A DNA stretch of 30,662 bases from Baffinella frigidus (taxonomy: Eukaryota; Cryptophyceae; Cryptomonadales; Baffinellaceae). Of the stretch, positions 4,531-23,745 are shown piece after piece. Where the stretch lies: NCBI GenBank assembly GCA_026770585.1, contig MU646915.1, positions 249,464 through 280,125 on the forward strand. The letters are read 5' to 3'. The translations under genes and the position numbers were made by a program. Position 1 is the first letter of the stretch. Every line of letters begins with the position of its first letter. A model generated the notes under the pieces. The model ran no database searches. It saw only the letters and a list, made by a program, of their open reading frames with translations, and was not told where the DNA came from.

Positions 4531-7500
4531 ATGGTCCGGCAGCTCGAGAACCTTCTGGGGGCGCTCTCCGTCAGCGGCGGCGAGCCTTTCATCCTGTGCG
4601 TTTCCTCGCCCGTCCCTTCTCGCTGCCCAAAACAGCACGCCAACAGTGCCAGTTTGCATCTTTTGTGCGGAGCAAACATGCTAGACGGACACGCGGGTGA
4701 CGAAGACAGGGGTGGCTGGCAGGCAAGCGAACTTCTGGGAGCACGAGGGCGGCGGCGACATCCCCGGGCAGTGTGCTCCGTTGTTGAACCGCAATGCCGG
4801 CCTGCTCAAGACCGACGCCGCGGCCAACAGCGCTCTCCTCGCGCGTTCCGCCAAATGGGCGGAACTCTGCGGTGCCGACAAAGTGACGGAGCTCCCCAAG
4901 GTGCGCAGCTCCCTGTCTCTCGCGGCTGCTAGCTGCCATGTCACGTGAGTCGCAGGGCGGAAGCAGCAAGCGGCGGAAGCAGCAAGTTCATAGGGGGGGT
5001 CCTACGAAACATGAGGTCCTAGGAGCCCTACGGCCTACCGTAGGCAAAACTGTAGGCCCAACTACCCGGTTTTCCGGACGTTACCCTATTAACGTGAGGC
5101 TGCGGATTGTTGCATGCGCGGGACAGGTGAGCCCGGGGCTCCCCAAGGTGCGCAGCTTCCTGTCTCTGGTGGCTGCTGGCCACGTGAGTCGCATGGCGGA
5201 AGCAGCAGGCGGCGGAAGCAGTGTGTGCGGCTGAGGATTGTTGCATGCACGGGACAGGTGAGCCCGGTGGCGGGCGCGGGGACCACGCAGAGCATCATCT
5301 GGCGCGACGCGGAACGCACGTAACCTCCCCAGCACCCCCTCGCCCCCCACTTTCGAGGCACGCCCCCCGCTGAGCGGCGATGGGGGGGGGGTGCGTCCAC
5401 CCTCACAGCCTGAGCAAATCGTCGGATTTGAGGTCACGTATTTCCCTTGGAGGCCGCCGGATTCCGGCGTCCGTGGAGCCGTTTTGTCTTGAAATCGAAA
5501 ATCGAAGATCTTCGATTTGCTCAGCCCGTGAGAGTGTGCGCGTTGTGCTCTGGTTGGAAGGAGACGCTGACTGGGCCACTCGAGACTGGAAGAGGGAGTA
5601 CTTTAAAAGTTTTAAGTTTACAAGTCCTTTAGAAGTGAAGGGGGGAAAATATGTCTAGTAATTTTCACACAATAGGGGCGTTTGGTCACGTAGCTGGCGG
5701 AATTCCGCCAGCTACGTGACCACGCCTGCCCGTGACTGGTACTAAATTTAACAACCCCATATTTAAAATGGTCTCATTTCTAGCCTCGAGTGGGGAGGTT
5801 GGAACACTGGCATTAACCTGCCCCACCACCACCTCCTCCCGGTTAGCGTCTCCGCCTGACGCAACGCCGCCAACCGCCACCAACCCTCACGGGAGGACCA
5901 AATCGTGGATTTCAGTTTTCGTCAGGAGACGCTGACCGGGGGGGGGGGTGAGGCTCCGACATGAACCTTACAGGGCGGAACCAGCAGGCGGCGGAAGCAG
6001 TGAGTTCGTAGGGGCGGTCCTACGAAACATTAGGTCCTAGGAGCCCTTCGGCCTACCGTAGGCAATACCGTAGGCCGAACTACCCGGTTTTCAGGACGTT
6101 GCCCTATTAACGTGATGCTGAGGGTTGTTGCATGCGCGGGGCAGGTTCATGTCGGAGCCGAATCCCTGTTTTGAAATAGTCACATTTCTAGCCTCCAGTG
6201 GCACGGGAGGACCAAATCGTCGATTTTAGTTTTTGGCAGTAGACGCTGACCGGGTGGAGGTGGTGGTGCCGAAACCTTGGCTTTACCCTGGCAGTTTCAA
6301 CATCGACGATTTGGTCCTCCCGTGAGGGTTGGTGGTGGTTGGCGGCGTTACGTCAGGCGGAGACGCTGACCGGGTGTGTGTGGTGGTGGGGCAGGTTCAT
6401 GTCGGAGCCGTGCCGGCAGCAGATGATCGACACGCTCGAGAAGGTTGCCGACGGTGACTACCACCAGGCGAGCACCTAACCCCTGAACCCTGAACCCTGA
6501 ACCCCAAACCTTGAACCCTCAACCCTGAACCCCAAACCCAGAACCCTAAACTCTGAACCCTAAACCCGGCGAGTACCTAACCCTCTCCCTGCCTCCCCTG
6601 TCTCCCTCGAAACTTTTGACCCTCTAACCCTTTAACCCTTTAACCCAATGTGCTTTTAAAAGTGGGCATTCGTGTAGTAACGTTCGTGATTGGTCACGCA
6701 ACTAGCCATATATTGGCCAGTCACGAGGTTGGGACCCCTCATCCTGGTACAAATATTTACAACCCCACATATAAACAGGATCCTCCAGCATTCTCGAGTG
6801 GGTGTGACCGCTTAGCCTAGGGAAACGTTTTGTACCGGGAAAGGGCTGTGCATGCAGTAATGTACATAGGAGTGTACGCTACATTGGAGTGTACGCTAGG
6901 AGTGTACGCTTCACCAGAGCACAACGCGCACACCCTCACGGGCTTGCCAAATGTAGCAAACACTCCCAGTAATGTAGCGTACACTCCTATGTCTTAATCC
7001 TCCCTGGTGCAAAACTTCACCCTCAGTAAGCGGCCGGGAACTATTAACGTAGAGTAGCTTCCACCAGCCCTTGGAGGTGGCGCAAATAGTGCTCTGGGGC
7101 ATTTTCGATTTGCCGTGGATCGGGGTCGGATCCGACCCCGATCTAAGGTAAAATCGAAGACCTTCCAGGACACTTGGTCACGTGACTCCTATGTCTTAAT
7201 CCTCCCTGGTGCAAAACTTCTGCCTCAATAAGCGACCGGGGACTCATGACGTAGGGTAGCCACCAGCCCTCCCAAGTGGCTCAAATACACTCGGATCCAC
7301 AACATTTCGCTTAAGTCAACTCCCCCTGAAAACCAGCGCCTTAAGTCAAATGCCTGCCATGGTGGCAGGGTCCATCTAAACGAAAACAGGGGAAAGTTGA
7401 CTTAGGTGAGCTTGTTGACTTAGCTGAAATATTGTGGGTCGGAGTGAAATAGTGCTCTGGAACATTTTCGATTTACCATGCATCGGAGTCGGATCCGACC

Positions 7501-10500
7501 CCGGTGTCAAGGTAAATCGAAAATGTTCCAGAGCACTGTTTGAGCCACCTCCAAGGGCTAGCGGAGCGTGGCGTGCACGTCGAGCAGGGTTTCCAGCATC
7601 CGCGAGCGAGGCAGGATCCGCAGAGCAGAAGAGTGCACGGCTGTGGGAGAGAAGGGAGAGAGAGACGAGAGAGAGAGAGAGAGAGAGAAGGGAGAGAGAG
7701 CGAGAGAGAGAGAGAGAGAGAGAGGGCTCGCACGGCGGCGCGCTGACACTCGTGGCGTGGTACCAGGGCATGGGGTACCAACGAGGCCGTGCGAAGACCT
7801 CTTCCCGCGCTGCCGGCTGACACGGATGGCGGGGTGGCAGGGCATGGGGTACCTCACAGGCTTCCTCCTCCTCGTGGTCCCGACACGCGACGTCGCCAAC
7901 ATCCTCCACCGCGTCGGGACGGACGCCAAGTACACCCCGGGGTACTGGAAGGGCCAACCAGAGGCGTTTGTGCGCGACGCCATGGTGTACCAGGAGCTTA
8001 TCAGAACGCGGCTTCCGGTACTGCCCCCCCGAGAGCTGTGCGACCCTACGGTAGGGAACCCTACGGTAGGGAACCCGTAGGGACATAGGGGGGTTCCTAC
8101 GGATAGGGGATAACGGATTGGTGGCCCGATTTGGTGCGCGACGCAATGGTGTACCAGGAGCTCATCAGAACGCGGCTTCCGGTGCTGCCCCCCCTCGCGA
8201 GGCCCATACGACCCTACGGTAGGTAACCCGTAGGGACATAGGGAGGTTCCTACGGATAGGGGATAACGGATTGGTGGCCCGATTTGGGCGGAAAATCCCC
8301 TCTTAGCCCGCTGTGTGGACACATCAAGGGAATAAAAACAAGCGATTGCTCCCACCCACTTCGCAGCGACCGAGTTCCTTTTCCCCCGGATATCCGGGGG
8401 AAACGCGGTTAGAATTTCAGGGCAGTGGATAAGATTCTAGTACGAATCGTTTAGACGGACTGCATCCGTGAAGCCCCCGGTGGCTGCTAAGTGGTCTCGG
8501 CGCCTTTCAGCAGCCAGCAGTCAACACCCCGTGCACACTCAGCCCTCAGCCCTGAACCCTACACCCTACACCCTACACCCTAAACCCTACACCCTACACC
8601 CTACACCCTAAACCCTAAACCCTAAACCCTACACCCTCAACCCTCAACCCCAAACCCCAAACCCCAATCCCCAAACCCCATACCCCAAACTCTAGACCCC
8701 AAAAGATCAATAATAAACCCCAACAGATCAATACTTAACCTAAGACCCTGTCTTAGGAGGCGTGCAAGCATCTGGAGACAGCGAACCTGGTGCCGGAGGC
8801 CTACGCCCAGAAGTGGTTCGTGGTACCTCCCTCCCCCCCCCGCTACCAACCTCCACGTGCCATCCACTTGCCCCGCCCACTTGTCGAGTAAAGCAGCTGT
8901 CCTGAGGTCGAAAAGGTGAATGCCGTCCGTAGCCGTCCGTAGCCGTTAACACTCTGTTTGGGGGGTGTCCCCTCCCCGCACCGCTGTCTGTCCCTATCTC
9001 TCTCTCTCGCTCTCTCTCTCTCTCCCTCTCTCCTTCTCTCTCCTCCCCCCCCTCTTGATTTCGCGCGCGCGAAATTTCGCGCGGAGGGGGGGGTTTGTGG
9101 TACCTCCCCCCCCCCTCGGTTTGTGGTAGCGCTGCGCGCGCCTCTCTCTCTCTCTATCTCTCTCTCTCTCTCTCTCTCGCTCTCTCTCTCGCTCTCTCTC
9201 TCGCTCTCTCTCTCGCTCTCTCTCTGTGTGTCCCTCTTTCCTTCTCTCTCCTCCTCTCCCTCTCGATTTCGCGCGCAACCGTGCTCCATGCACGCTCCCT
9301 AGATCTCACATGGAAACACTTTTAATTTATAAACTTGGATTCAATAAAAATTACGACACGTTTGCTTTGATGTTACTCATAAAGATCGTTGTGTGTAGTA
9401 AATTTCATTGAACCACGTTTATAGATTGAACGTGTTTCCATGTGAGATCGTCCGCTCCTCAAGGAGCAGAGAGGTTTGTTTTTGTGCTAGATCGTTTGCG
9501 GTAATTGTTGTCCGTTTTGGACGTGCGGTTTTCCGGTTTTCCGGTTCTCATTTGCCCCCCCCCCCGATTCATTTGTACCAGAGAAGTGTCCATTTAAAAC
9601 ATTCGACTACCTTTACAACATTTTAAAAAACCGTAAAACCGGGAAACCGTACGTCCAAAACGGACAACAATTACCGCAAACGCTCTAGCAAGATGGGAGG
9701 AATGGATCCCCTCTCTCGGACCAAGGGCGACGACCGTCATCTGCCGCTGGCTGTGGATCGCGCGGAGGGTGCCAGGGGCCCTAACCACTAGACCCTAGAC
9801 CCTGGACCCTAGACCCTAGACCCTAGACCCTAGACCCTAGACCCTAGACCCTAGACCCTGAACACTGAACCTTAAACCCTAAATCCTAAATCCCCCCTCT
9901 CGGACGAAGGGCGTCGACCGTCATCTCGCAGTGGCTTTTCAGGTAGAGTATTTTTGTTAGCGTGTCTCAGAAGGATACCTCGGACAGACTGCCACGCCAG
10001 AGGGCTCGAGGGAAACCGACGACTTATCCACGCCAGATCTGGCTTCGTTGACTTAAGAATTCAGGGGGTTTCCCCTGAAAGCTGTCAAAAGTGGATGTTT
10101 CGAGCCCTCTGGCGTGGTACTCTACTAGAGAGGAGGTGGCTGTGGATCCCGCGGAGGGTGCCCGGGGCCCTAACCTCCAGACCCTAGACCCTAGACCCTG
10201 AACACTGAACACTGAACCTTAAACCCTAAATCCTAAATCCTAAACACTGAACCCTAAACCCTAAACCCTCAACCCTAAACCCTAATCCCCAAACCCCAAA
10301 CTTCAAACCCCAAACTCCAAACGCCGAACCCCACACTCCACACCCCACACCCCAAAACAAAAAACAAAAAACAAAACACCAGACACCCCACACCCCAAAG
10401 CAGAATTGCGCCTCGTGGTACTATTTAAAATCCTTGTCACGTCCTATAAGTCCCCTTTCAAAACCGGGAAACCGGGAAACCGTACGTCCAAAACGGACAA

Positions 10501-13500
10501 CAATTACCGCAAACGCTCTACCTCCCAGCGGACTTCGAGGGGATTTTGAGTAACCCCTATGCGATAAGACCTAGGACCCTACGGTAGGCAACCCGTAGGG
10601 ACATAGGGGGGTTCCAACGGATAAGGTAACGGAAAGGTGGCCCGATTTGACGCGAGAATCCCTTCGTAGCCCGCTGTGTGACATGTTAGTGTGGCTTGTG
10701 GGCAGATCGATGGTTTCTTAAGTCAAATCGATGGTTTCTTAAGTCAACAAATGCACTCTACACGGCAGGGCGCCGAAATCGGCGCCCTGCCAAAAGTCAT
10801 TTTACCGAGAAAAAAATCGTCCTTTCTCCAAAACAGTGGCCCATGTGTGAAGGAATGTTGTGAAGTGACCGCACTTGACGGTTTTGATCTAGTGCGTCCG
10901 CGTAGAGGGGTTCCCGGCCGAAACCCAAAAACCGAAACGGGGGGAAAGCGGGATTTAATTAGTTGACAAACACGACCGCGGTATGGAGCTAGGGGGGGGG
11001 GGGTGCGACGAGACCAGAGGGCTCACGCTGCCCGCTACCACCCCGGAGGGTAGGTATGGGAACTGGTGTCTCTTCCACTAGCCGGGTCGTACCACGCCAG
11101 AGGGCTCGAAACCTCCACTTTTGACATGTTCCAGGGGGAACCTGGCATACAAGCCTCGCAACCTGTTGACCAACGGATAGATAGAGAGAGAAAGGTGGCC
11201 ACCAAGACCGGCCGCAAGGTTACTCCCCCCATCTCATCTGGCCACTTAAGGGATAGGGGTTACCGGCTGGCCACTTAAGGGATAGGGAGCTTGTCCCTAG
11301 GCCTTGTAGGCCAAGAGGTCCTAGGCAGGTCCTAGGGTCCTACGGTAGGGCGTATGAGCCTACTGGGCACTTAAGGGATAGGTGTTACCAGGTATCCCGT
11401 GGATTTCCTTGCCGTCCTTTGCGGTTCGGTGTGCGCGGATGATGGCCGCTGTGCAGAGGGCCTCAAACAGAGAATCTTTTTAGAAAGGGGTTGGCATCGA
11501 AACTTACTACGCACTTTGATCACACTAGTAATAGTAAGCTACCACCCCAGGGGTTGTGCGTGCACGCGATGCCGTTCGCGTCGCTGATGGACGTGACGGA
11601 GGGGCCACGTAGCAGCGGCCGCGTTCCTGTCCCCCCGGATATCCCCCGGATATCCGGGGGGGAAGCGGTTAGAGTCCAATGCAAATGGATAAGATTCTGG
11701 TAAAAAATGTTTAGATGGACTGTATCCGTGAAGCCCTCGGCGGCTGCTAAGTGGTTTCCTGGCGGATGGGCGGCCAAACCCCGCACCCCACACCCCAATC
11801 CCCAAAACCCCACACCCCCGCACCAGGGGCTGTACGTGCGCGCGATGCTCTCCCCCGAGGGGCAACTGTTATTTCCGTTATTTCCCTGGTGGACGAGCCT
11901 CACAACCTGTTGACCAACGCGACCACCCCCCAGGGGCTGTGCGTGCACGCGATGCCGTTCGCGTCGCTCATGGACGTGATGGAGGGCTTCCTGGCGGAGG
12001 GCAGCCTGTTCCTCTTCAAGCTCTCGGTGGCGATCGTCGCGGCGATCCAGCCGCGTATCCTCGAGTGCAAGCCCCACGAGGTCCCCGGCCGTTTGACTAT
12101 CAAATATTTGATGGTCAAAGTCCTTCTTTCTTCTTCTTCTTCTTCTTCTTCTTCTGCTTCTTCGTTATTGCCCTCAGAAAGGACCTTGATGATACTCCAG
12201 AGGCCCCCAAGCAGCCAAACCGCCTCTCCTAGCCACCAAGCCTGCTGCCTAGGGCATCTTCTGCGCGCGTGTTCATGCAAAAAGCTTACGTTAACGCAGT
12301 GGTAACTTTGGTACAAAATTTATAATGGAAAATATTCTTGGGCTTTAAAAGTCCTGAAATCGCTTTTAAAATCGTTTTAGAGCCCGGTTGACCATCAACG
12401 GCTCCAGTAAGCCCACGTTAACCGACCCCTTAAGGGGTCCGTTAACGTAAGCTTTTTGCATTAGTGTCACCTCCCGGGGAACCTCCGAGGGCATTTCCGA
12501 ACGCAACGTTTCGTTTCGTGGTACTAAATGAGTGTGCGTGTCCCGGCGAGACGCAGCTCCTCGTCCTTTCCACGTCCGGGCTTTTACCTGAATCCGAAAC
12601 CCCCGGGGTACACCATTAAAAACTGGCTTGTATAATAAACTCTTGACGCGTGGCCTGGCGTGGGTGCAGGTCAACCCTTCTCGGGGGGGGGGTCCTGCTT
12701 GCCATTATCCTAGCGATCTAATCCCGCCGAGTATTCATAATGAATACGATTTTGGTGTATCTCAAGGGGTATAAACCAGACAGTCGTCTATCTAGACTTC
12801 ATTTAGAGCCTCAAGATACACCAAAATCGAATCGGAGATCCCCGAAATCGTATCCATTATGAGTACTCGTCCAGATGAGATCCCAACAAACACGAGCGTC
12901 CAATCACGCCAGGCCACAAGTCATTGGCGTGGACACACGTCATAATTCCAGAGACAGTTCAGGGTTTGAATCGTGTGCCGGGGTTTTCAGAGTTAACATG
13001 GCGTGGTACAGGGTTCGAGCTTCTGCGGCTCCTTTCCACTCCCGGGCTTTTACCCGAATGCGGCCCACCGAGACAAACGTCGAGAGTGGAACGTCTCAAA
13101 GCAAAAGTGGAACCTCTGTTAACTTAAAAAATAACAGTGGAATGCACAATTAAGACGTGGATTGTATAATAAACTCTGACGTGTGGCCTGGCGTGGCTAG
13201 ATGTGTGGCCTGGCGTGGCTAGACGTTTGTTGCGATCCCAACAAGCACGCGCGTCCTGGTTTGACGAGGCGTGTTTAGACGCCCCAGCGAAATTCACTTC
13301 AGTGGCGTGCCTCGCCTCGAAAGGCCCCTTACGACGGCGGGCCTCCACTTTAGGCGAACAAGTTGTTCGAGCGTCTGCGGCTGGACAGACGACCCCAACC
13401 CCTAGGCGGTCAGAGGACCCTACGGTAGGCTACCCGTACCACACAGAGGGCTTCCAAGTGATTTTCAGGCACTCAGTGCCCGAGTTTCCGTTTCCTTATC

Positions 13501-16500
13501 CGTAGGAACCCCCCTATGTCACTACGGGTTGCCTACCATAGGTTACTAGGTCTTATCGCTCAGGGGTTATTCAGAATCCCCTCGAAGTCCGCTGTGGGGG
13601 TGACGTGGCGTTGTTGGCTGCAGGTGGACGAGCTGTTCGAGACTTCCCCTATGAGATCCCACCAAACACGTGCGTCGTGACTTATGGCGTGGCTCCACTT
13701 TAGGTGGACGAGCTGATCGAGCTGATGCGGCTGGCATAGGTCCTAGGGGCCCTACGGCCTACCGTAGGCAACACCGTAGGCTTAACACGTGCGTCGTGAC
13801 TTATGGCGTGGCGTGGCTCCACTTTAGGTGAACAAGCTGTTCGAGCTGCTGCGCCTGGACAGGAAGCTGTTCCCGGACGAGGACCTCTCCTTCTTCGCCG
13901 CCATCCTCGAGTCCGCCAAGGTCCGCTCGGGAATGCTGTTGAAAGTTGACTTTTGATTTGTCAACTTAGAATCCATGAGACCCAAAGACCTTGAGGCCTG
14001 AAGAGAGGGGGGGGGGGTGAGGGAATGCAGGGAGGGCGGAGGTGTGAGGGGGGGGTGGCACAGTGTCACCCTCTGCTATTTGACCATTAATTTGACCAGT
14101 CCCCGAATCCGCCAAGGACCGCCCCTTCCCACTCCACACAGCGGACTTCGAAGGGATTTTGGCACAAAATCCGTAGGAACCCCCCTATGTCCCTACGGGT
14201 TGCCTACCGTAGGGTCGTAGGTCTTATCGCTTTAGGGTTGTTCAAAATCTCTCTCCTTCTTCGCCGGCATCCTCGAATCCGGCAAGGTCCGCCCTTATCT
14301 CGTCGAGGTATTTAGTAGCAGTAAACAATAAGGTGAGGGGCCCCTCCCCCTGCTCTGAACCTGCGCGTCTCGCAGTCGTGCTCGTCAGAAAACGGCGTTG
14401 ATTACGCATCAACGTAGCCACCACTCCACGCAGCGGACTTCGAAGGGAGTTTGAATAACCCTTAAGCGATGATGAGGCCTAGGACCCTACGGTAGGCAAC
14501 CCGTAGGGACATAGGGGGGTTCCTACGGATAAGGTGACGGAAACTCGGCTCGAAATGGGCCGAAAATCCCTTCGTAGCCCTCTGTGTGGAGCCCTGGGAA
14601 GTTGCTCATATTGCGCTCTGGAACAGAAATCCTAAAGGTTGATTTTGGTACAAAATGTGTCAACTTAAGTCGCAGAGACCCCAGATCTGGGGTCTCTGCA
14701 AGGTGAATCGAAAATGTTCCAGGGCGCTATTTGAGTCACCTCCGAGGGCTAGTGGTCACGTTCTGCCATTTGACCATTAATTTGACCATTCCCTTCCCTT
14801 TATTTGACCATTCCCCTCGCTGCATATTCATCTCGGAAGATAACTGAACCAGTTCCTTTTCAATAGGAGCTTGAATAGGAGAAATTAGATAGGGCATAGT
14901 AAATGCAAATAGGCCGCCTAATTAAATGAAAACGCTAATTAGGGAACTGATTCAGTCATCTTTCGAGATGCATATGGCACGTGCCACCCTCGCCACCCCA
15001 TCGCCTCGTGACACGGCCTGGCGTGGTGTGTGTCTTGACACACTTTCATCCGGACGAGTATTTATGATAAACACGCCACGGCAACGAAAATTACTACACA
15101 CATGCTTTAATAACTACTAGTATGATCAATTTGTGTAGTAAATTTTGTTGCCTCTGCGTATTTATCATAGATACTCACCGCGATGAAGTTGGAGGTGTGG
15201 AGGGGGTGTGTCTCTTGCCGCGGTCGGGGGTGGGGGTTGACTTTGGGGGTGGCGGGTTGACTTTAGGGGTGGCGGTTGACTTGGGGGTTGGGTTGACTTT
15301 TGGTGTGGGGGTTGACTTTGGGGGTGGGGGTTGACTTTGGGGGAGGGTTGACTTTAGGGGTGAGTGTTGACTTTGGGTGTGAGTGTTGACTTCGGGTGCG
15401 AGTGTTGACTTTGGGGGCGGGGGTTGACTTTTGGGGTGGGGGTTGACTTTGCGAGGTGGTCGCAGAAAGTGGAGGTGACGGAAGAGGAGATCGCGACGCT
15501 TCGCGAGGAGCAGTGGACCCTCCTCCAGGCCAAGCTTGCCAAGGTCCGCCATGTTGACTTACGCGCCATGTTGACTTCAGCCGACTCCTGAGGCGGGCTT
15601 GTAGCTAGGTGCCCTCCTCCAGGCCAAGCTTGCCAAGGTTCGCCACTCTCTGTCTCTCTTTCGCTCGCTCTCTCTCTCTCTCTCTTTCGCTCTCTCGCTC
15701 TCTCTCACACACACGCACTTTCGCCATCATCAATTTCAATCATATTGTTCTTGATACGCATGTCACCCTCCTCCAGGCCAAGCTTGCCAAGGTGCATTTC
15801 CCCACAAACCCCTAAGACATCCATTCACACAAACCTCTAAGACATCCATTTCAATGCAAAAAGCTTACGTTAACGGACCCCTTAAGGGGTCGGTTAACGT
15901 AGGCTTACTGGAGCCGTTGATGGTCAACCGGGCTCTAAAACGATTTTAAAAGCGATTTCAGGACTTTTAAAGTCAAAGAATGTTTTCCATTATAAATTTT
16001 GTACCAAAGTTACAACACCGTTAACGTAAGCTTTTTGCATGAATTTCTGTTCGCATGGGTAGCCTCGTATGGGAAGCCGAATGGATGTCTCAGGGGGGTG
16101 TGGGGAAATTACCCCTCCTGCAGAAAGGGGGGTCGCGAAAAAAATTGATCAACGTTTATCAAAAATTGATCAACGTTTATCAACCAGTTGATCAACGTTG
16201 ATCAACACATTAAATTTCGCGGTCGTCACGACCGCGGTATGGAGCCAGGGGCAGAACTACCCACACGGTGGACTACGGATATTTCAGGAGACTCTCCACC
16301 AGGCTTATCCGGGGATAACTATTTTTCTTTCATTCGATGGCAACGAAAATTACTACGCAATTCCTTCTTGTTAGTAATATTTAAACATTTGTGTAGTAAT
16401 TTTCATTGCCATAAAATGAAAGAAAAATAGGTTTCCCCGGATAAAGGTCAGGCTTGCCGAGGTCCGCTAATTCCGTTAATTCCGATTTATTCAAGAGGAT

Positions 16501-19249
16501 TCTCGGTTTCAGCCCGTGCCATCCCCCCACGCCCACACGAGGCTATCCATGCGAACAGATTCATAAGTTATTTATTGGATTATTGCCCAGGAAACACGCC
16601 AAAAGTCAGCATTTGATCACGTTTCCGTACGGACATACGTACGGAAACGTGATCATTTCCCCGCAAATTTTCAAATGTTCTTTTATTCTGTTCGCATGGG
16701 TAGCCTCGTGTGGGCAAGGACCGGTGCTGTCTCGCCCTCGTGCAGAACCACCCACTTGCTGGACTGCGGACATTTTAATAGCGACGCAACCTATAAATAG
16801 TTTTGTAAAGCAACTCGTTCTGGTACAAATTATAAAACAAGGTCCATTTAAAACTAAAAAGGGCTCCAATTCCTTTTTAAACGGGGTCTTGTTCTATAAT
16901 TTGTACCAGGAACGAGTTACTTTACAAAACTAATTATAGGTTGCGTCGCTATGAATTTCAGTGGACCCTCCTCCAGGCCAGGCTTGCCAAGGTCTGCTAT
17001 CCTGCGGAAGCACCCCTGCGCGCACGTCTACTCCCCCACAAAACCGTCAACGTTTTGTTTACTGCTACTAATTGAAATATTGACTTGACGGTTTTGTGGG
17101 GGGGGTGACTTGAGAGAAACCAATTAATAAATACATTATCTGAGATTAGATCTGCATCGCGTGAGGTGGGCCCGTCCTAGCCTCCGGCCCTGCCACGCCA
17201 GAGGGCTCGAGGGAAACCGACGCCTTATCCACCCCAGATCTGGCGTCGTTGACTTAAGTATGCAGGGGCTTTCCCCTGAATGATGTCAAAAGTGGATGTG
17301 TCGAGCCCTCTGGCGTGGTGTCGACCGAGAGGTCGTCCGAGGCGGGCCCGCCCTCAACTCGACCCTCACGATTTCATCTCGGAAGATAACTGAATCACTT
17401 CGTTATCAGTAGGAGGTTGAGTAGGAGGCTACGGGGGGGTGGAAGGTGCGGGCGCGTCCTAGCCTCGGCGCTCACGAGTGAGAGGGTCGACGTAAGTCAA
17501 CGTTATCTCCTTAAGTTGCTTGGGATAGTTGACTTAAGGTGCGTGGGGTGGCAGGTGCGTGCGCGGGAGCAGGAGCTCAAGGACGAGGATGACGGCTCGG
17601 ACGGCATCGAGTTCTCCGACGAGAGTGACGAGGAGGTACCCACTCGGTATTCTGCGGTAGTCACGTCCCTCCCCGGATTTCCGGGGAGGGACGTGACAAA
17701 ATTGCTGACGTGTGGCGTGTTTGTCGGGCAGGAATCCACTTATTAAGTTAAGCATGGTTCCATCAGGAGGTACCACCAGCAATCCGTGCGGCCTAAACCG
17801 TACCTTGTGACGCCGAGGAGGTGCCTTGCCAGCCTCTCTCTCTCTCTTGCCAGCCCCGCTCTGCACCCGAGGAGGTATCGAATTCTACCTCGAGAGTGAC
17901 GAAGAGGTACGAACCCGTCCTCTTTCGATTTCGTCTCCCCACCAATTCGCCCCCCCCAGAATTCCCCAGGTGAATTTTTGACCCCCCCCCTATGAAATTC
18001 CCTGTTCCGGCCTCGAGTGTACGGCTCTGCCGGCATCGGGTTCTCCGACGAGGACGAGGAGGAGGTAGAGCCAATCTGGCATACGAGCCTCGCAACCTGT
18101 TGACCAACGCTACCACCCCAGGGGCTGTGCGTGCACGCGATGCTCTCCCCCGAGGGGCAACTAGAGCCAATCTGGTAGGACTTGGCCAAAGCGAACTTCG
18201 AAGTTGCAAGATTGCGAACTTCTAGATGGACCCGTTTGGACATGTAGTGTTTTAAATTCAAATTTTGCAGTACAATCATGGTGTTTACTAATAATTACGG
18301 TCCATCTAGAAGTTCGCAATCTTGCAACTTCGAAGTTCGCGCTGGCCAAGTCCTACCAGATTGGCTCTAGCCACTCGGATCACTGCGGAGAACCATCTCA
18401 AGTCAATTACTGGATTGTTTCTGAGGAAACACGCCAAAAGTCAGCATTTACACACCTGATATCCGGGGATGTGGTTCTCCGTAGCCTCCCGAGTGGCCAC
18501 TCAAGGCTGAAAGTGGGAGCATTTTAAAAGTGAGCGTGTTGAATTTGTACCAGGCACGGGCGGGCGAGGTACCCCTGTAGAGTGTGTGTGACCTTACTGG
18601 GAGAGGCTGAGAGCGAGACCGTGATTGCTACCAACACCTAACATGGTGGCGGCAGTGTGAGAGTGGTCCACTTGCAGGGGTACCTCGCTCATAAGAAACT
18701 GCCCCACCCTAAGACCCTACAGTAGGCCTATGCCTAGGGCCCTACGGTGGTCCTAAGGGGGGGTGGCAGTTTCTTATGAGCGAGGTACCTCTCTAGTGTG
18801 GTGCACGTGTCGCTAATCCATGATAGTGTCCGACGCCATGCAATTTAAACCGCCTTTTATGCTATGTTAAGGGTGGATTTTGTCAGATTTTGCCACGTCG
18901 ACATAGCTTTACCATAGGACAAAACCCACCTCAAGATAGCAAAAACACGGTTTACATTGCATGGCCTCGCCCATGAATCTCTCGCCACGCACGCCAGGTC
19001 AGAAGTCGAAATTTGAACGTTTTTTTTTTTACTACACGATCTAGAAGTAAAGTTGATTCTACCCGAGAAACACGCCAAAAGTGTTGGGGGTTGGAGCTGT
19101 TTGCCGCCGTAATTTTAAAAATATGTACCCTGATAAGCCATCTAAACACTTTTAGCGCGAACGAGTGTGTGTGAAAAAGAAGCTTATGACCTGGCGTGGC
19201 CCTCTCGCAGGATGAGGCCGAGCGTCTTGCCAAGCTCGCGGCCCAGTGA
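4531..19249 (+). CDS. TBC-domain Rab GTPase-activating protein, 364 residues, 11 exons
   Basis: Family role: stimulates GTP hydrolysis by Rab proteins in membrane traffic, using an Arg and a Gln finger. Exons: 4531-4595, 4723-4900, 5222-5319, 6395-6467, 7841-8017, 8757-8822, 11934-12080, 13828-13920, 15466-15543, 17555-17635, 19211-19249 (TGA). All phases agree and the sum is 1,095 nt. Arg finger motif IxxDxxR is I107-D110-R113, followed by TF; Gln finger YxQG is Y136-Q138-G139, split by intron 4. Then GMGYLTGFLLL (139-149), HLETANLVPEAYAQKWFV (202-219), and GLCVHAMPF through EGSLFLFK (220-249), where spacing after WF matches the TBC fold exactly, although the usual RVWD reads DVME. The fingers are about 10 residues closer than usual. 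A charged helix (300-325) and acidic tail (326-352) follow, ending DEAERLAKLAAQ. Intron 4 is GC-AG, the rest GT-AG. The start is fixed by an in-frame stop directly upstream. Exon 3 is the least certain. Confidence 0.92.
4901..5221 (+). repeat. TBC intron 2: duplicated intron with hairpin and exon 3 copy
   Basis: A unit running from the exon 2 end (CTCCCCAAGGTGCGCAGC) through GTGAGTCGCA to GGCGGAAGCAG occurs at about 4891-4980 and again at 5138-5221. Between lies a hairpin insert (4991-5091, with CCTACGGCCTACCGTAGGC) and a partial copy of exon 3 (5092-5127). The simplest ancestor is a short intron of about 85 bp later expanded by insertion plus duplication of both exon edges. Confidence 0.8.
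5684..5721. repeat. Perfect 38-bp palindrome
   Basis: The sequence from GGTCACGTAGCTGGCGG to its exact reverse complement, centred on GAATTC with no loop. It lies in TBC intron 3. Such perfect palindromes are usually unstable, so this copy is probably young. Confidence 0.95.
5845..6394 (+). repeat. TBC intron 3 (5320-6394), distal part: repeated GACGCTGACCGGG and hairpin blocks
   Basis: AGACGCTGACCGGG occurs at about 5928, 6239 and 6361. The CCACCAACCCTCACGG hairpin arms occur at 5876-5910, 6206-6230 and inverted at 6300-6335. A second copy of the 4991-5091 insert sits at 6009-6112, followed by a diverged exon 3 copy (GTTGTTGCATGCGCGGGGCAG) joined to a false exon 4 start at 6143-6159 (GTTCATGTCGGAGCCG). 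The true exon 4 begins at 6395. Confidence 0.78.
6468..6655 (+). repeat. Telomere-like array directly after GC donor of TBC intron 4
   Basis: Exon 4 ends CACCAG and the intron opens GCGAGCACCTAACCCCTGAACCC, then CCCTGAA/CCCTAAA variants. A second GGCGAGTACCTAACCC block at about 6567 repeats the opening. CCCTAAA is on the sense strand, as in the other genes. Confidence 0.88.
6840..7565. repeat. Nested hairpin complex in TBC intron 4
   Basis: Contains GGAGTGTACGCT repeats at 6870-6910; two copies of CTTAATCCTCCCTGGTGCAAAACTTC-type sequence (6994-7080, 7193-7285); and two hairpins with TTTTCGATTT arms around GGATCGGGGTCGGATCCGACCCC (7089-7172, 7448-7540). The outer arms CACCAGCCCTTGGAGGTGG (near 7062) and CCACCTCCAAGGGCTAG (7544) are inverted to each other. 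Related hairpins lie at 14615-14740 and about 25290-25350. Confidence 0.75.
7566..7840 (+). repeat. End of TBC intron 4: GA tract and duplicated exon 5 acceptor
   Basis: A (GA)n tract at 7652-7730, then GCTGACACTCGTGGCGTGGTACCAGGGCATGGGGTACC at 7742-7779, matching the true acceptor region at 7816-7853. The first copy keeps the CAG/GGCATGGGGTAC junction but runs out of the TBC frame. Choosing the second copy gives the conserved YHQ/GMGYLTGF join. Confidence 0.8.
8018..8756 (+). repeat. TBC intron 5: two family C elements, exon 5 copy, CCCTAAA array
   Basis: Truncated family C element at 8040-8132, then a 64-bp copy of the exon 5 end with its donor (8133-8196; encodes RDAMVYQELIRTRLP again), then a second family C element at 8210-8314, then a telomere-like array at about 8540-8700 with CCCTACA and CCCTAAA units. 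The real exon 6 acceptor is TCTTAG at 8756. The exon copy could be spliced as a cassette, but its ends are not paired acceptor and donor. Confidence 0.82.
8823..9450 (+). repeat. TBC intron 6 proximal: CT tract and family G hairpin
   Basis: CT-rich microsatellites at 8995-9050 and 9140-9255, broken by GCGCGCGAAATTTCGCGCG (about 9061-9079). A copy of the exon 6 donor region (TTTGTGGTACCTCCC) is at about 9091. A 150-bp hairpin at 9300-9450 has outer arms GATCTCACATGGAAACACTT and an inner family G stem (TTCAATAAAAATTACGACAC to GTGTAGTAAATTTCATTGAA). Confidence 0.82.
9488..9688. repeat. Long hairpin, arms TAGATCGTTTGCGGTAATTG
   Basis: Inverted arms of about 60 bp, including TTTGCGGTAATTGTTGTCCG and its complement, with CCGGTTTTCCGGTT inside. 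The right arm alone recurs at about 10460-10520, directly before a family C element. Confidence 0.85.
9700..10390 (+). repeat. Duplicated GACCCTAGACC arrays flanking family A copy 2
   Basis: CTCTCGGACNAAGGGC plus GACCGTCATCT occurs at 9713-9745 and 9897-9930; GGCTGTGGATCSCGCGGAGG leading into GGGGCCCTAACC and a CCCTAGA array occurs at about 9748-9870 and 10138-10200. The family A element (9992-10117) splits the second unit. A telomere-like tail with CCCTAAA, CCCCAAA and CACCCCA runs to 10390. All are in CCCTAAA orientation, the sense of the TBC gene. Confidence 0.8.
9992..10117. mobile_element. Hairpin element family A, copy 2
   Basis: Termini CCACGCCAGAGGGCTCGA and TCGAGCCCTCTGGCGTGG, inner CACGCCAGATCTGGC palindrome, and TGTCAAAAGTGGATGTTTCGA. 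Highly similar to the copy at 17193-17318. Confidence 0.9.
10523..10680. mobile_element. Hairpin element family C, copy in TBC intron 6
   Basis: About 158 bp: AGCGGACTTCGA-type left end, GCGATAAGACCTA, then CCCTACGGTAGGCAACCCGTAGGG, TTCCWACGGATAAGG, and right end TCCCTTCGTAGCCCGCTGTGTG. The family consensus includes the CACACAGCGG terminus. Full or partial copies: 8040-8132, 8210-8314, 13438-13597, 14134-14254, 14426-14590, 28107-28267, 28276-28428, 30319-30479. Confidence 0.9.
10681..11240 (+). repeat. TBC intron 6 middle: short repeats and truncated family A copy
   Basis: ATCGATGGTTTCTTAAGTCAA is tandemly repeated at about 10706-10748. A stem GGCAGGGCGCC / GGCGCCCTGCC sits at 10763-10790. 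CACGACCGCGGTATGGAGC at about 10972 recurs at 16227. A truncated family A element is at 11092-11150, followed by GCCTCGCAACCTGTTGACCAACGG, a copy of the exon 7 upstream flank. I see no gene. Confidence 0.7.
11241..11380. mobile_element. Hairpin element family D, copy 1
   Basis: Termini GGCCACTTAAGGGATA, inside AGGTCCTAGGCAGGTCCTAG and CCTACGGTAGGGCGTATGAG. Other copies: 20252-20356, 20769-20873, 21195-21299, 22669-22773, 28446-28551. It shares the CCTACGGTAGG core with families C and E but has different ends. Confidence 0.88.
11541..11875 (+). pseudogene. Two broken copies of the TBC exon 7 acceptor and 5' end
   Basis: ACCACCCCAGGGGTTGTGCGTGCACGCG at 11541-11605 continues 60 bp into exon 7 sequence (VHAMPFASLMDV in translation) before diverging. 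A second, shorter copy is at about 11819-11872 (CACCAGGGGCTGTACGTGCG, then TCTCCCCCGAGGGGCAACT). The real exon starts at 11934. A further copy sits 6 kb downstream at 18073-18162. Confidence 0.82.
12126..12160 (+). repeat. (TTC)n microsatellite
   Basis: Short run of TTC triplets in TBC intron 7, about 45 bp after the exon 7 donor. Confidence 0.9.
12274..12461. mobile_element. Hairpin element family B, copy 2 (inverted)
   Basis: Termini ATGCAAAAAGCTTACGTTAA and TTAACGTAAGCTTTTTGCAT. Internally the reverse complement of copies 1 and 3. Family B sits in both orientations relative to host genes. Confidence 0.9.
12462..13437 (+). repeat. TBC intron 7 middle: dispersed repeat, long hairpin, exon 8 copy
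   Basis: CGTGGTACTAAAT repeat pieces at 12490-12600 and 13003-13063. A long imperfect hairpin at 12718-12868 has GAGTATTCATAATGAATACG and TTTTGGTGTATCTCAAG arms. TGTGGCCTGGCGTGGCTAGA is tandem at about 13182-13223. A broken exon 8 start at 13347-13390 reads TTTAGGCGAACAAGTTGTTCGAG. I see no independent gene. Confidence 0.75.
13438..13597. mobile_element. Hairpin element family C, inverted copy
   Basis: Runs from CCACACAGAGGGCTTC to GAAGTCCGCTGTGG with TTATCCGTAGGAACC and ACTACGGGTTGCCTACC inside. It lies between broken and true copies of the exon 8 start. Confidence 0.87.
13598..13827 (+). pseudogene. Two further broken copies of TBC exon 8 start
   Basis: GGTGGACGAGCTGTTCGAG at 13623-13642 and TTTAGGTGGACGAGCTGATCGAG at 13699-13721, the second preceded by CTTATGGCGTGGCTCCACTT, exactly as the true exon is (13799-13827). 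CCTACGGCCTACCGTAGGCAACACCG between them is the remnant of a hairpin insert. With 13347 this makes three broken copies before the functional one. Confidence 0.85.
14134..14590. mobile_element. Two family C elements with exon 8 end copies between
   Basis: A truncated inverted copy at 14134-14254 and a full copy at 14426-14590. Between them, 14256-14300 repeats the exon 8 3' end and donor (TCCTTCTTCGCCGGCATCCTCGA to AAGGTCCGCC); a shorter copy CCGAATCCGCCAAGGACCGCC is at 14103-14123. Elements and exon-edge copies alternate. Confidence 0.83.
14615..14976. repeat. Two hairpins in TBC intron 8
   Basis: 14615-14740: GCGCTCTGGAACA to TGTTCCAGGGCGC, inner GCAGAGACCCCAGATCTGGGGTCTCTGC palindrome and TTTGGTACAAAATG. 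14829-14976: ATCTCGGAAGATAACTGAA to TTCAGTCATCTTTCGAGAT with an AATAGGAG / CTAATTA centre; its left half recurs alone at 17373-17430. Confidence 0.82.
15038..15180. repeat. Family G hairpin in TBC intron 8
   Basis: Inner stem GGCAACGAAAATTACTACAC to GTGTAGTAAATTTTGTTGCC (15079-15151), with outer arms around GAGTATTTATGATAAA and TTTATCATAGATACTC. The same inner stem, with different outer arms, is at 9338-9410, 16338-16410 and 21313-21385; a broken copy is at about 11491-11520. Confidence 0.85.
15230..15452 (+). repeat. GTTGACTTTGGGGG minisatellite before TBC exon 9
   Basis: About a dozen tandem units of 17-21 bp, each with GTTGACTT followed by a G-rich spacer, ending 13 bp before the exon 9 acceptor at 15465. 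The G-rich strand is the sense strand here, unlike the telomere-like arrays. Confidence 0.9.
15544..16137 (+). repeat. TBC intron 9 proximal: exon 9 end copies and nested family B copy 3
   Basis: Copies of CCCTCCTCCAGGCCAAGCTTGCCAAGGT at 15612-15640 and 15765-15793 repeat the exon 9 end and donor. A CT tract lies at 15650-15707. Family B copy 3 (15854-16040) is inserted inside an outer hairpin whose arms are GCATTTCCCCACAAACCCCTAAGACATCCATT (from 15784) and AATGGATGTC...GTGTGGGGAAATT (near 16078), so one hairpin element has landed in another. Confidence 0.85.
16138..16470. repeat. TTGATCAACG repeats, family G hairpin, exon 9 copy
   Basis: TTGATCAACGTTTATCAA-type tandem repeats at 16144-16205. 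Hairpin at about 16309-16440 with outer arms CCGGGGATAACTATTTTTCTTTCATT and the family G inner stem. A short, diverged copy of the exon 9 end (CAGGCTTGCCGAGGTCCGC) follows directly at 16449-16467. Confidence 0.8.
16530..17000. mobile_element. Palindrome and family F copy 2, followed by exon 9 copy
   Basis: A stem GATCACGTTTCCGTACG / CGTACGGAAACGTGATC lies at 16615-16654, after AAACACGCCAAAAGTCAGC. Family F-like hairpin at 16780-16960: ATAGCGACGCAACCTATAA arms and CTCGTTCTGGTACAAATTATA. A fifth copy of the exon 9 end (GTGGACCCTCCTCCAGGCCAGG to CAAGGTCTGC) is at 16961-16997. Confidence 0.84.
17034..17101. repeat. Short hairpin CCCCACAAAACCGTCAA
   Basis: Inverted arms of 17-20 bp around an AT-rich loop of about 30 bp in TBC intron 9. 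Confidence 0.88.
17193..17318. mobile_element. Hairpin element family A, copy 3
   Basis: Termini CCACGCCAGAGGGCTCGA / TCGAGCCCTCTGGCGTGG. The flanks GTGGGCCCGTCCTAGCC (left) and GCGGGCCCGCCCTCAAC (right) resemble each other and could be a diverged target duplication. Confidence 0.88.
17636..18161 (+). repeat. TBC intron 10 proximal: palindrome, exon 10 copies, transposed exon 7 copy
   Basis: A stem GTCACGTCCCTCCCCGG / CCGGGGAGGGACGTGAC is at 17660-17697. Broken exon 10 ends (CGAGAGTGACGARGAGGT) occur at 17866-17908 and 18018-18068. At 18073-18161 there is a copy of the exon 7 upstream flank and 5' end (GCCTCGCAACCTGTTGACCAACG, CAGGGGCTGTGCGTGCACGCG), about 6 kb from the functional exon 7, carrying the TCTCCCCCGAGGGGCAACT tail of the broken copy at 11872. 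Confidence 0.84.
18162..18370. repeat. Near-perfect long hairpin (family J)
   Basis: 209 bp with inverted arms of about 75 bp (TAGAGCCAATCTGGTAGGAC to its complement, through AACTTCGAAGTTGCAAGATT and TTCTAGATGGACC). Its terminal motif also occurs singly at 18066-18079, the flank of the exon copy. Confidence 0.93.
18371..18793. repeat. Hairpin and family E copy 1
   Basis: 18371-18499: arms CCACTCGGATCACTGCGGAGAACCA / TGGTTCTCCGTAGCCTCCCGAGTGG with AAACACGCCAAAAGTCAGC inside. 18675-18793: family E element (CAGGGGTACCTCGCTCATAAGAAACTGCC to its complement) with CCTACAGTAGGCC core. GGGCGAGGTACCCCTGTAGAG at 18573 supplies an additional arm. Confidence 0.83.
18834..19199. repeat. Two hairpins at end of TBC intron 10
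   Basis: 18834-18965: GCCATGCAATTTAAACCG / CGGTTTACATTGCATGGC. 18982-19199: ACGCCAGGTCAGAAG and GACCTGGCGTGGC ends with AAACACGCCAAAAGTGTT inside. They run up to 11 bp before the exon 11 acceptor (19210). Confidence 0.78.
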
Positions 19250-19450
19250 CCCGCCTTTCTTCCAAGTCTCCGCTCCTCTACAGGGGTACCTCGCTCATCA
19301 GAAAGCGCCCTCCCCCCTAGGACCACCATAGGGCCCTCGCCATAGGCCTACTGTAGGGTCCTAGGAGGAGGCGGTTTCTTATGAGCGAGGTACCCCTGTA
19401 CAGCTCCCTCGTGTCGTCCAACGCGTGTGGTCAATAAAATGTCTCTTCTC
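19250..19450 (+). promoter_or_regulatory. TBC gene 3' UTR with AATAAA signal, split by a family E element
   Basis: After TGA, CCGCCTTTCTTCCAAGTCTCCGCTCC continues beyond an inserted family E hairpin (19279-19400) as CTCCCTCGTGTCGTCCAACG and GTGTGGTCAATAAAATGTC; AATAAA is at 19433-19438. The uninterrupted order is visible in the copies at 19727-19760 and 19985-20046, which read AAGTCTCCGCTCCCTCGTATCCAACG without the insert. Confidence 0.8.
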
Positions 19451-19496
19451 GTGGCCAGAGGGCACGCATGTCTCTGTATGCCCAGCGTATGCCCAG

Positions 19497-19621
19497 TACA
19501 GGGGTACCTTGCTCATAAGAAACCGCAACCCCCCTAGGACCCTACAGTAGGCCTATGCCTCTAGGGCCCTACGATGGTCCTAGGGGGGGGGGCGCTTTCT
19601 GATGAGCGAGGTACCCCTGTA
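19497..19621. mobile_element. Hairpin element family E, copy 3
   Basis: ACAGGGGTACCTTGCTCATAAGAAACCGC to its complement, with CCTACAGTAGGCCTATGCC and GGGCCCTACGATGGTCCTAG. Other copies: 18675-18793, 19279-19400, 20973-21098 (left end lost), 21941-22042. Confidence 0.9.
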
Positions 19622-20400
19622 GAGGAGCGGAGACTTGGAAGAAAGGCGGGTCACGGCAGGGGTACCATCGTAGGGGTACCCCTGCAGCAGGTTTGGGTCT
19701 CAGACGATCACTTGCTCCGCCCAGTAACGCGCCTTTCTTCCAAGTCTCCGCTCCCTCGTATCCAACGCCGGTTTCTGCCGCGATCCTCCGTACAGCGGTC
19801 GTGTTTAACAATTTAGTAAACCTTGTTTTCCCCCACGTCGTTGTCAAGTAAAGCAACCCAAATGCTTTCTCAGATCCTCTGTACAGGAGGGGGGCTTGAT
19901 GTGATCCGAAAGGAAGCATGGCCTTTCTGCAGAACAAGTTCCGGTGTCCGCCTATGTTGGGAGCTCGAAGAACCTAAAGGACCTAAAGGACAAGTCTCCG
20001 CTCCCTCGTATCCAACGCGCGTGGTCAATAAAATGTCTTTTCTCGCACGATTATGGCTCAGTCCACACAGCGGGCCGCGACGAGCCTCTGCACTGGAGAG
20101 CTCAACGCGATCCGAAAGCAAAAATGCTTTCCCTGCAGATCCCTTCTACGGGACGGCGTGTCGTTGGCATATGTTGGGAGAAATCAAAACCTAAAGGACC
20201 TAGAGGGATGTTCGGGCGCTGAGCGCCCGAGTTCTTCCAAGTCTCCGCTCCTATCCCTCAAGTGACCAGTAGGCGCATACGCCCTACCGTAGGACCCTAG
20301 GACCTACCTAGGACCTCGTGGTGGTCAAATTTGACCACCTGGCCACTTAAGGGATACAGCTCCTTCGTGCCCAACGCGTGTGGTCAACGAAATGTCTTTT
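19622..20400 (+). repeat. TBC 3' UTR copies mixed with family P repeats
   Basis: UTR copies: 19727-19760, 19985-20046 (with GTGGTCAATAAAATGTC) and, split by a family D hairpin (20252-20356), 20229-20251 plus 20357-20400 (AATAAA mutated to AACGAAA). Between them are family P units of about 95 bp (19897-19992: GATCCGAAAGGAAGCATGGC, TTCCGGTGTCCGCCTATG; subfamily at 20108-20207). The short reading frames here are repeat-derived. Confidence 0.75.
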
Positions 20401-21300
20401 TTCGCACGGGGGTGTTTGGCTAAGTGTTGGCCTATGAATAGCCTGATCCGGTAGGAGGTGGCGTTAGAATCCATCCGGAAAATGCTCGTATGAGCGGCCG
20501 ACACGGGGTACAGTAAGTGGCACAATGCGTCGAGCATGTGCGGCGCTGACGCTGGTTGTTTGGCAATAAATTATCAATCTCTCTTGGCCGCGTTTCGACT
20601 TGGATAGCACCTGCCCTGCCGCTGCATACCGCTGTCGAGCCAACTCGGCACATATAAGACAGCCAGGACCGGGATTCCGGTCCTGGCTTTTCATTTTAAA
20701 AGTCCATTTCCTTCAGGATTCAGGTTAAAGTTTTTAAAATCGTGTCCCGTCCTCGCTCGGTAGCGGACTATCCCTTAAGTGCCCAGGTAGTCAAATTTGA
20801 CGGCCAAGAGGTCCTAGGCAGGTCCTAGGGCCCTACCGTAGGGCGTATGAGCCTACTGGGCACTTGAGGGATAGGGGTAACTCGCGAAGATGGGCACGTG
20901 GCTTTCCTGCAGAACAAGTTCCGGTGTCCGCCTATGGTGGGAGTTAAAAGAACCTGAAGGACCTCAAGGACGCACCCATCCCCTAGGATCCTAAAGTAGG
21001 CCTATCACCTGGGACCCTAAAGTAGGCCTACGCCTAGGGCCCTATGCTGACCCTAGTAGGGGGGGGGCAAGTTTCTTATGAGCGAGGTACCCCTGTAGGG
21101 GGGTTCCTAGGAAGAGGCAAGCCGTCTGGGCCAACGCGCCTGGACCTCCCTACCCGCGATGGCTTCAAAGTGACCGGAGAAGGATGGAAACGTGTATCCG
21201 TTAAGTGGCGAGGGGGTCAAAATTGACCCCCCAAAGGTTCTAGGCAGGTCCTAGGGCCCTACGGTAGGGCGTTTGAGCCTACTGGCCACTTGAGGGATAA
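20401..21300. repeat. Repeat region: AATAAA repeat copy 2, families D, P and E
   Basis: 20487-20584 is copy 2 of the 1090-1190 repeat. A stem AGCCAGGACCGG / CCGGTCCTGGCT is at 20661-20688. Family D at 20769-20873 and 21195-21299, family P at 20898-20970, a truncated family E at 20973-21098. A stretch at 21105-21190 could encode a short peptide in more than one frame, but I cannot choose one or place it in a gene. Confidence 0.7.
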
Positions 21301-22955: not shown

Positions 22956-23189
22956 GACGCCACAGTTCGTGTCTGTCTTTTCATAGGTGTTGAACTGTGT
23001 GTTATGAGGTGATGGCCACGGTAGACCGTTACTGGGTTGCTCAAGGTGGGGGTCTCATTAGACTTCCTTTAGGTCCTTTAGGTTTTAATTTCTCCCAACA
23101 TGGCCCAACGACACGCCGTTCCGTAGAAAGGACTGCAGAGAAAGCATTTTTGCTTTCGGATCGCACCAAGTTGCATGCCCTTAGGGGGG

Positions 23190-23745
23190 TTGAGTTTTGA
23201 GTTGAGGGTTTGGGGTTTGGGGTTTGAGGTGCGGTGTTTAGGTTTGAGGGAGTTCAGGGTTAGACTGCTGTAAATAAAAGGTTTAGAGTGTGGGGTGTGA
23301 GGTTTGGCGTTGAGTGTTTAGATTTTAGTGTTCAGCATTTAGCGTTGAGGGTTTCGCGTTTAAGGTTTAGGATTGGGATTTCGGGTGTGGAATTCAGGGT
23401 GTGAGGTTTAGGGTTCAGGGTTCAGGGTTTAGGATTCATGGTTTGGGATTTGGGTTTTATTGTGCAGGGTTGGGGGTTCAGGGTTTAGGGTCTAGGGTTT
23501 AGGGTTTAGGGTTTAGGGTTTAGGGTTTAGGGTTTAGGGTTTAGGGTTTAGGGTTTAGGGTTTAGGGTGTAGGGTTTAGGGTTTAGGGTTTGGGGCTTGA
23601 GGTTTGGGGTTTAGGGTTTAGGGTTTATGGTTCCTAAAGGGTTTAGGGTTTAGGGTTTAGGGTTTAGGGTTTAGGGTTTGAGGCGTGAGGTTTAGCGTTT
23701 AGGGTTCAACGTTTAGGGTTTAAGGTTGAGCATTTAGGGTTTGGG
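23190..23745 (-). repeat. Telomere-like array, TTTAGGG on plus strand
   Basis: Starts with diverged GTTTGGGG/GTTGAGGG units, becomes a run of exact TTTAGGG at about 23490-23570, then degenerates. On the minus strand it begins with GGAAAG/GCGAAACCCC, closely like the GCGAG starts of the introns after GNA1 exon 3, TBC exon 4 and gene 3 exon 6. This suggests it is the start of an intron in a minus-strand gene. Confidence 0.85.

Follow-up and report, generated by a model that had tools for sequence, protein, structure and literature searches.

The TBC gene and its relatives

The window, by which we mean the whole stretch of DNA analyzed, spans 30.7 kb within an assembly of 382 Mb and 1364 contigs. 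On its forward strand it carries a gene for a TBC (Rab-GAP) protein (4531-19249), besides GNA1 on the reverse strand and a third gene, here gene 3, on the forward strand. Based on the homologues P0001, P0003 and P0011 (identity up to 80%), eleven TBC exons were placed: E1 to E6 at 4531-4595, 4723-4900, 5258-5319, 6395-6467, 7841-8017 and 8757-8822, and E7 to E11 at 11934-12080, 13828-13920, 15466-15543, 17555-17635 and 19211-19249. They splice into an intact open reading frame, and homologue P0001 contains a RabGAP-TBC Pfam domain. The introns measure 127 bp to 3.1 kb and are of the GT-AG type, except for intron 4, which is GC-AG and thus has GC in place of GT at its donor (6468). The stretch from E1 to E2 occurs once in the assembly, apart from a local tandem copy, and a second allele of it was not found there. 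A Pfam search with six open reading frames of the window detected no domain, an Rfam search of the window at the gathering threshold gave no hit, patterns of viral contigs were looked for and not seen, and a search for a TBC gene transcript from the same species found none.

Relatives were compared through the proteins P0024, P0005 and P0011, which come from public contigs, so that intron lengths in these relatives were deduced from reading frames. The frame of P0024 (996-bp contig) spans E1, intron 1, E2, intron 2 and E3. It aligns without gaps through intron 2 as a single intron of 110 bp, once a duplication present in the window, where this intron has 357 bp, is collapsed; the alignment score is 661 in the collapsed and 483 in the found state. 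Consequently, both the duplication in intron 2 and the element I that it holds are absent in this relative, and the duplicated state looks derived. In P0005, encoded on a contig of 37.8 kb, the open reading frame continues across the sites of introns 2 to 7, and from this comparison these introns look labile. P0011 has 63 additional residues (by eye) at the position of intron 7, which measures 1747 bp in the window; they may represent an intron retained in a transcript.

Copies of exon edges inside introns

The earlier note had claimed that nearly every large intron carries broken copies of the neighboring exon edge together with its splice site. This stands: copies were found in nine of the ten TBC introns, the exception being intron 1 (127 bp). 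If 60-base queries from the exon edges were employed at a threshold of at least 24 bits, 13 of 20 edges gave at least one extra match and 27 matches were obtained in total, while 50 dinucleotide shuffles delivered a mean of 3.0 and a maximum of nine. Thus the pattern exceeds chance, although chance could account for some of the weak ones (the E8 acceptor match at 13013 and two matches at the E10 acceptor). Two of eight 60-mers from exon interiors matched as well, and both proved to be the inner ends of edge copies. Accordingly shaped is the coverage profile, in which copies extend into the exons from their ends and leave the middles bare. All TBC edges named earlier (the starts of E3, E4, E5, E7 and E8 and the ends of E5, E8, E9 and E10) do have extra copies; further ones were detected at the end of E2, at the end of E6 (weak and C-rich) and in the 3'UTR.

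The end of E2, the whole small intron 2 and the start of E3 form a tandem duplication (4887-5264, forward) with the abutting units 4887-5133 and 5134-5264. No spacer separates them, CGG is common to both at the junction (by eye), and element I lies inside the first unit only. This duplication also creates a possible in-frame mini-exon of 21 nt (5127-5147, VSPGLPK), if both resulting introns were spliced. A third copy of the 3' part of intron 2, again with element I, is fused to a copy of the E4 start at 6138-6160 (5971-6160 altogether, forward). The E4 start has, besides this direct copy, two inverted ones: 100 bp with 91% identity to the intron 3 acceptor region 6302-6401 (5811-5910, reverse) and 17 bp at 5952-5968. 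At the E4 donor region (6463-6583, forward) the repeats 6463-6482 and 6564-6583 (18/20) surround an insert of telomere-like repeats. E5 possesses an acceptor copy (7742-7779, forward) and a tandem duplication of its donor without spacer (7967-8287, forward, period 164). The 164-bp unit holds a truncated dispersed (D-type) element, which is therefore older than the duplication at this site. At both spacer-free pairs, E2/E3 and the E5 donor, the identity at the junction amounts to 3-4 bp (by eye).

The start of E7 was found twice more in intron 6, as an acceptor copy interrupted by about 360 bp of inserted DNA (11139-11603, forward; insert 11176-11537, limits by eye) and at 11828-11867 (forward). 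A third copy, comprising the end of intron 6 and the start of E7, is located 6.2 kb away in intron 10 (18083-18162, forward), between a 14-bp piece of a terminal inverted repeat (TIR; 18066-18079) and a complete TIR element at 18161-18370. The E8 start has three copies, at 13622-13641 and 13665-13734 (13622-13734, forward) and, most distant, at 13336-13388 (forward); a 45-bp fragment resembling element I (13737-13781) separates E8 from the nearer one. Its end has two (14100-14292, forward), at 14100-14122, with GA at the site, and at 14251-14292. For the end of E9 four copies are present (15612-17000, forward): 15612-15645, 15765-15793, a third one split by the hairpin 16305-16444 into about 16287-16304 (by eye) and 16445-16467, and 16959-17000. 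Two copies of the E10 end lie at 17874-17910 and 18021-18067 (17874-18067, forward). We had considered that the farthest E10 copy retains an ancestral intron start shared with P0011, and dropped this idea, as the TAGAGCC in question is the end of a transposon family with 96-100% identity. The 3'UTR region finally is present in several direct and inverted copies (19241-20408, forward), the first of which contains element C. Here, perfect 28-bp repeats (19741-19768 and 19991-20018) flank a 222-bp insert, whose inner part recurs in the window and which may be a retroposon.

Among adjacent direct copies with exon edge and intron flank, only those at E2/E3 and the E5 donor are free of spacers. The remaining TBC pairs are separated by tens to hundreds of bases, comprising element fragments, CT-rich DNA and whole hairpins. 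The statement that copies alternate with hairpins holds for some pairs and fails for four, at the E5 start, the E5 end and between E9 copies 1-2 and 2-3, where the list of ungapped hairpins above our score cut, from which element I is absent, has no entry. A monotonic layering, the kind of history that the earlier note had proposed to test by ranking the copies by divergence, did not emerge either. Compared with the nearer copy, the farther one is less similar to the exon in six cases, more similar in five and equally similar in one (hand comparison), and we thus rejected a simple age ladder in which nearer copies are consistently more similar.

GNA1 and gene 3 behave likewise, as noted earlier. 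GNA1 (107-909, reverse) has one edge copy: the exon's acceptor region lies at 145-265, and its copy, at 329-909, is interrupted by an insert of 265 bp as well as by element A. Its exon blocks equal P0025, an MMETSP protein, residue for residue, apart from read-through at block ends (98% identity to a GNA1 query that contained three wrong residues), and the nearest matches with an organism name are from the cryptophyte Hemiselmis, which identifies the window as cryptophyte DNA. In this transcript-derived protein CSQ is joined to DNVKFY at the acceptor attached to the exon, not at the copy at 329-368; hence one splice choice is supported by a transcript-derived protein. In gene 3 (29104-29654, forward) a presumed exon start occurs in tandem copies of 122 bp, and a whole presumed exon has a second copy (29356-29425 and 29585-29654), with exons placed by eye.

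Outside the window, local direct duplications were found in all ten other loci that passed a size cut, at 0.5-7.2 per kb against none in shuffles, counted after removal of dispersed repeats; L007 and mostly masked loci fell below the cut. Median repeat lengths range, by locus, from about 28 to 110 bp. The loci L002-L008 had been found through element A, which biases this part of the sample toward elements, while position decided the choice of L015, L019, L021 and L028, which are what could be read of 20 stretches. In the HADHA-like gene of L003 an upstream copy of the acceptor region has lost its AG, and in L005 a donor is duplicated. In addition, we selected CCT chaperonin genes by family, regardless of repeats. 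A local extra copy lies at or beside four of ten exon matches (L037, L039 at only 74%, L041 and L046). This is a raw count at a threshold of 27 bits, without shuffle control and scored by proximity to the match; the ten matches fall in fewer than ten genes, and two telomere-like matches and a self-palindromic one at L042 were excluded.

Hairpin elements and their relation to the copies

The hairpins of the window are TIR/MITE transposons, with terminal inverted repeats and, in family A, a short target duplication. For family A, 40 full-length matches were scored (94-100% identity, the window's own included), and an exact 4-bp target duplication flanks the element at seven of eight loci read, the one at L007 differing by a single base. 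The family of hairpin 18161-18370 likewise comprises 40 scored full-length matches (96-100% identity, the window's own included). We therefore rejected the idea that this hairpin arose as a local inverted duplication, since it belongs to a dispersed family. With regard to introners, none of the ten TBC introns starts and ends at a listed hairpin, and a dispersed multi-copy family is formed by the hairpins, not by the exon-edge copies.

Elements insert independently of the copies, at times into existing ones. Element A interrupts the duplicated stretch at GNA1, whose sister copy is intact, and likewise one copy in L007 and an exon-derived copy in L008 (target duplication AACT). Element C interrupts one of two copies both in the 3'UTR and in L021. 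For the hairpin 16305-16444 inside the third E9 copy, the automatic procedure gave a 7-bp repeat, and a 4-bp reading that restores the copy was made by eye. As their sister copies are uninterrupted, the copies hit by elements pre-date these elements, a finding that the earlier note itself had named as speaking against its proposal.

Several further features of the repetitive fraction were observed. Element C (about 120 bp, GGTACCTCGCTCATAAGAAA ends) forms clusters of many diverged copies at 18656-22060, L021:3931-6857 and L028:2485-4793, and a 16-bp repeat abuts the copy at L028:2484-2606. The hairpins 9302-9449, 15056-15176, 16305-16444 and 21314-21387 differ in their outer arms and contain a similar inner core (of the type GAAAATTACTACACA...TGTGTAGTAATTTTC), which gives the impression that a single core inserted into the centers of different hairpins. 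Element A is nested within a wider hairpin around 15798-16110. In the PRPF31-like locus, an exon copy (copy D, L008:2405-2590) contains a hairpin-like insert of about 74 bp with a 12-bp flanking repeat, GCTCATCCAGAA. Another dispersed repeat without evident terminal inverted repeats, possibly a retroposon, has a CCTAAAGGACCTAAAGG end and a variable other end (19886-19991, 20144-20206, 20899-20971, 21526-21624, 22374-22462, 22571-22659, 23067-23164 and 23813-23901).

Long degenerate arrays of the TTTAGGG type, resembling telomeres, occur inside introns and between genes (1247-2500, 6470-6570, 8538-8694, 9778-9874, 10177-10406, 23177-23707 and 27040-27730). The array in intron 4 lies between near-identical flanking repeats (6463-6482 and 6564-6583), an arrangement that would fit the addition of telomere repeats at breaks. 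Two of the arrays are preceded by a duplicated unit of about 75 bp (9704-9783 and 9890-10173), the second copy of which is split by an insert that holds the TIR element 9992-10117.

Origin of the copies

We consider it likely that frequent short direct duplications, probably products of break repair, underlie the pattern, and that those crossing an exon-intron junction are tolerated, lengthen the intron and strand splice sites inside it. Short-range direct duplication would then be frequent throughout the genome, its source probably being the fill-in of staggered double-strand breaks or repair or replication guided by microhomology, at times with filler DNA. We infer this from analogy with small tandem duplications (PMC8355091) and with neointrons of Daphnia (PMC4202315). 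If one end of a duplication lies in an exon and the other in an intron, geometry dictates that the full exon keeps its own splice site, while a partial exon edge with a second splice site ends up in the intron. This is the arrangement seen at the TBC exons: the duplications cross the borders, the full exon has a splice site and the further one is stranded in a longer intron, just as the earlier note had read them. A spliceosome using the site at the full exon would leave the mRNA unchanged and let the intron grow, as supported for the GNA1 acceptor and as homology suggests elsewhere. Duplications wholly within exons would presumably be purged. TIR hairpins insert independently, family A with 4-bp duplications, and sometimes into copies. 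However, simple tandem duplication has to contend with the spacers in many pairs and with copies that are inverted or displaced (5811-5910 and 18083-18162).

Alternatively, excision of TIR elements might leave breaks next to the insertion site. Imperfect repair of the resulting gaps would then duplicate flanking DNA and pick up fragments, and transposition would have given rise to the duplications indirectly. The density of TIR elements, the element fragment serving as spacer at 13737-13781, the host fragment beside the 14-bp TIR piece (18066-18162) and the inverted local copies would suit this scenario. However, the duplications at E2/E3 and the E5 start lack an element at the junction, although an excised element leaves no trace. 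We regard it as unlikely, yet deserving of attention.

Is duplication concentrated at exon-intron junctions? In the TBC gene nine of 20 edges are covered by copies, compared with 22% of intron points (P about 0.02, uncorrected), and within exons, edge copies that extend inward reach 9.5% of the points located 30 bp or more from an edge. The excess over intron points counts against duplication independent of splice sites. However, being about twofold, it is mild, and it could arise if pairs that include a copy under constraint diverge more slowly. Furthermore, copies A and B in the PRPF31-like locus start inside the presumed exon and not at its edge, so copying does not depend on the splice site. 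With this mild excess and local duplications in ten of ten loci, the view of insertions aimed at the borders is not upheld. One might speculate about a genome-wide ratchet of intron growth in a cryptophyte lineage, in which transcription or splicing, for example via R-loops, concentrates duplication at junctions and the stranded edges can be dated. If so, the growth of each intron would be preserved in a succession of exon edges, which the spliceosome has to disregard. We judge this quite doubtful.

The proposal of the earlier note was that hairpins insert at exon-intron borders and duplicate 20-90 bp of flank each time. It predicts the same stranding geometry, and hairpins do lie between some copies. 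However, the target duplications of family A have exactly 4 bp at seven of eight loci, elements reside within copies whose sisters are uninterrupted, and the four copy pairs mentioned lack a listed hairpin between them. Among 92 hairpins, perfect repeats that abut the element exceed expectation at lengths of 4-6 bp, while only two hairpins have repeats of at least 8 bp (13 and 16 bp, the latter being the longest; 0.2 expected). Similarly, two of 38 hairpins in the window show at least 80% flank identity over 15 bp, and none over 20, 30 or 40 bp. None of six near-identical copies of the 18161-18370 family has a repeat of at least 8 bp flush on both sides, and no clear target duplication is visible. 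Two of the six, in L032 and L033, adjoin repeats of 8 and 13 bp whose left copy directly abuts the element, while the right copy is 17 and 11 bases away, respectively (L033:1489-1733, with the repeat AGTCATCTTGGCC). The abutting 13- and 16-bp repeats, these one-sided repeats and the 12-bp repeat in L008 do count against a complete independence of duplications from hairpins. Nevertheless, hairpin insertion as the source of flank duplications of 20-90 bp seems very unlikely to us.

Even less probable is a selective retention of the copies as decoy splice sites or alternative exons, with the mini-exon of the E2/E3 duplication as an example. GT or AG is retained in 17 of 18 TBC copies checked, but a divergence of about 8% would by our estimate leave most sites intact anyway. 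Exonic and intronic parts of the copy blocks have diverged to a similar extent (456/495 and 175/197 identical positions), many copies are partial, some are broken by insertions, and the acceptor copy in the HADHA-like gene lacks its AG. An assembly artefact, to which the absence of one duplication from the reading frame of P0024 might point, is hardly credible, as the copies differ by 0-17% over the aligned blocks checked, carry different insertions and recur in similar form at many loci.

Both ingredients of the preferred reading, duplication across junctions and breaks that lengthen introns, are already published. In potato RdRp and Arabidopsis TOUCH3, tandem duplications cross an intron-exon boundary or contain a whole intron with both exon flanks (PMC4974935, PMC3443670), which resembles the E2/E3 duplication. 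However, there an intron is new or multiplied, whereas here an existing one appears to swallow copies and to lengthen. The Daphnia neointrons carry direct repeats at their ends and inside, which were interpreted as traces of recurrent staggered breaks through which introns grow passively (PMC4202315). The likeness lies in direct repeats at and inside introns that lengthen. In contrast, repeats shared with one exon measure 4-12 bp in the newly gained introns of Daphnia, while here a single gene has blocks of about 20 to more than 60 bp in all but one of its ten introns, and the copies are interspersed with transposons and telomere-like DNA. Small tandem duplications through 3' overhang fill-in and end joining are described from human and mouse cells, where short ones (<100 bp), as found here, are a common class of insertion (PMC8355091). 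Like introners and MITE-derived introns (PMC9860276, PMC7789003), the locus is rich in intronic TIR elements that have short target duplications, but here they are embedded in larger introns without defining the splice sites. Rogers and Bendich read direct repeats of 4-30 bp (mean 11.4) near splice sites as footprints of insertions (PMC11782384). Compared with these, the repeats at the borders are often longer here, and only some pairs bracket an insert. In the available text of the open-access literature we found no report at this density or from a cryptophyte. The locus presents known kinds of event at an unusual intensity.

The lengthening of introns is usually invisible, since intron DNA decays and offers no reference. 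Here, events that catch an exon edge leave a marker. As selection continues to act on its original, the source of the marker and its position can be recognized. A set of strains would make it possible to measure the rates of intron growth, the order of transposon insertions and duplications, and how the choice of splice sites persists next to near-identical decoys.
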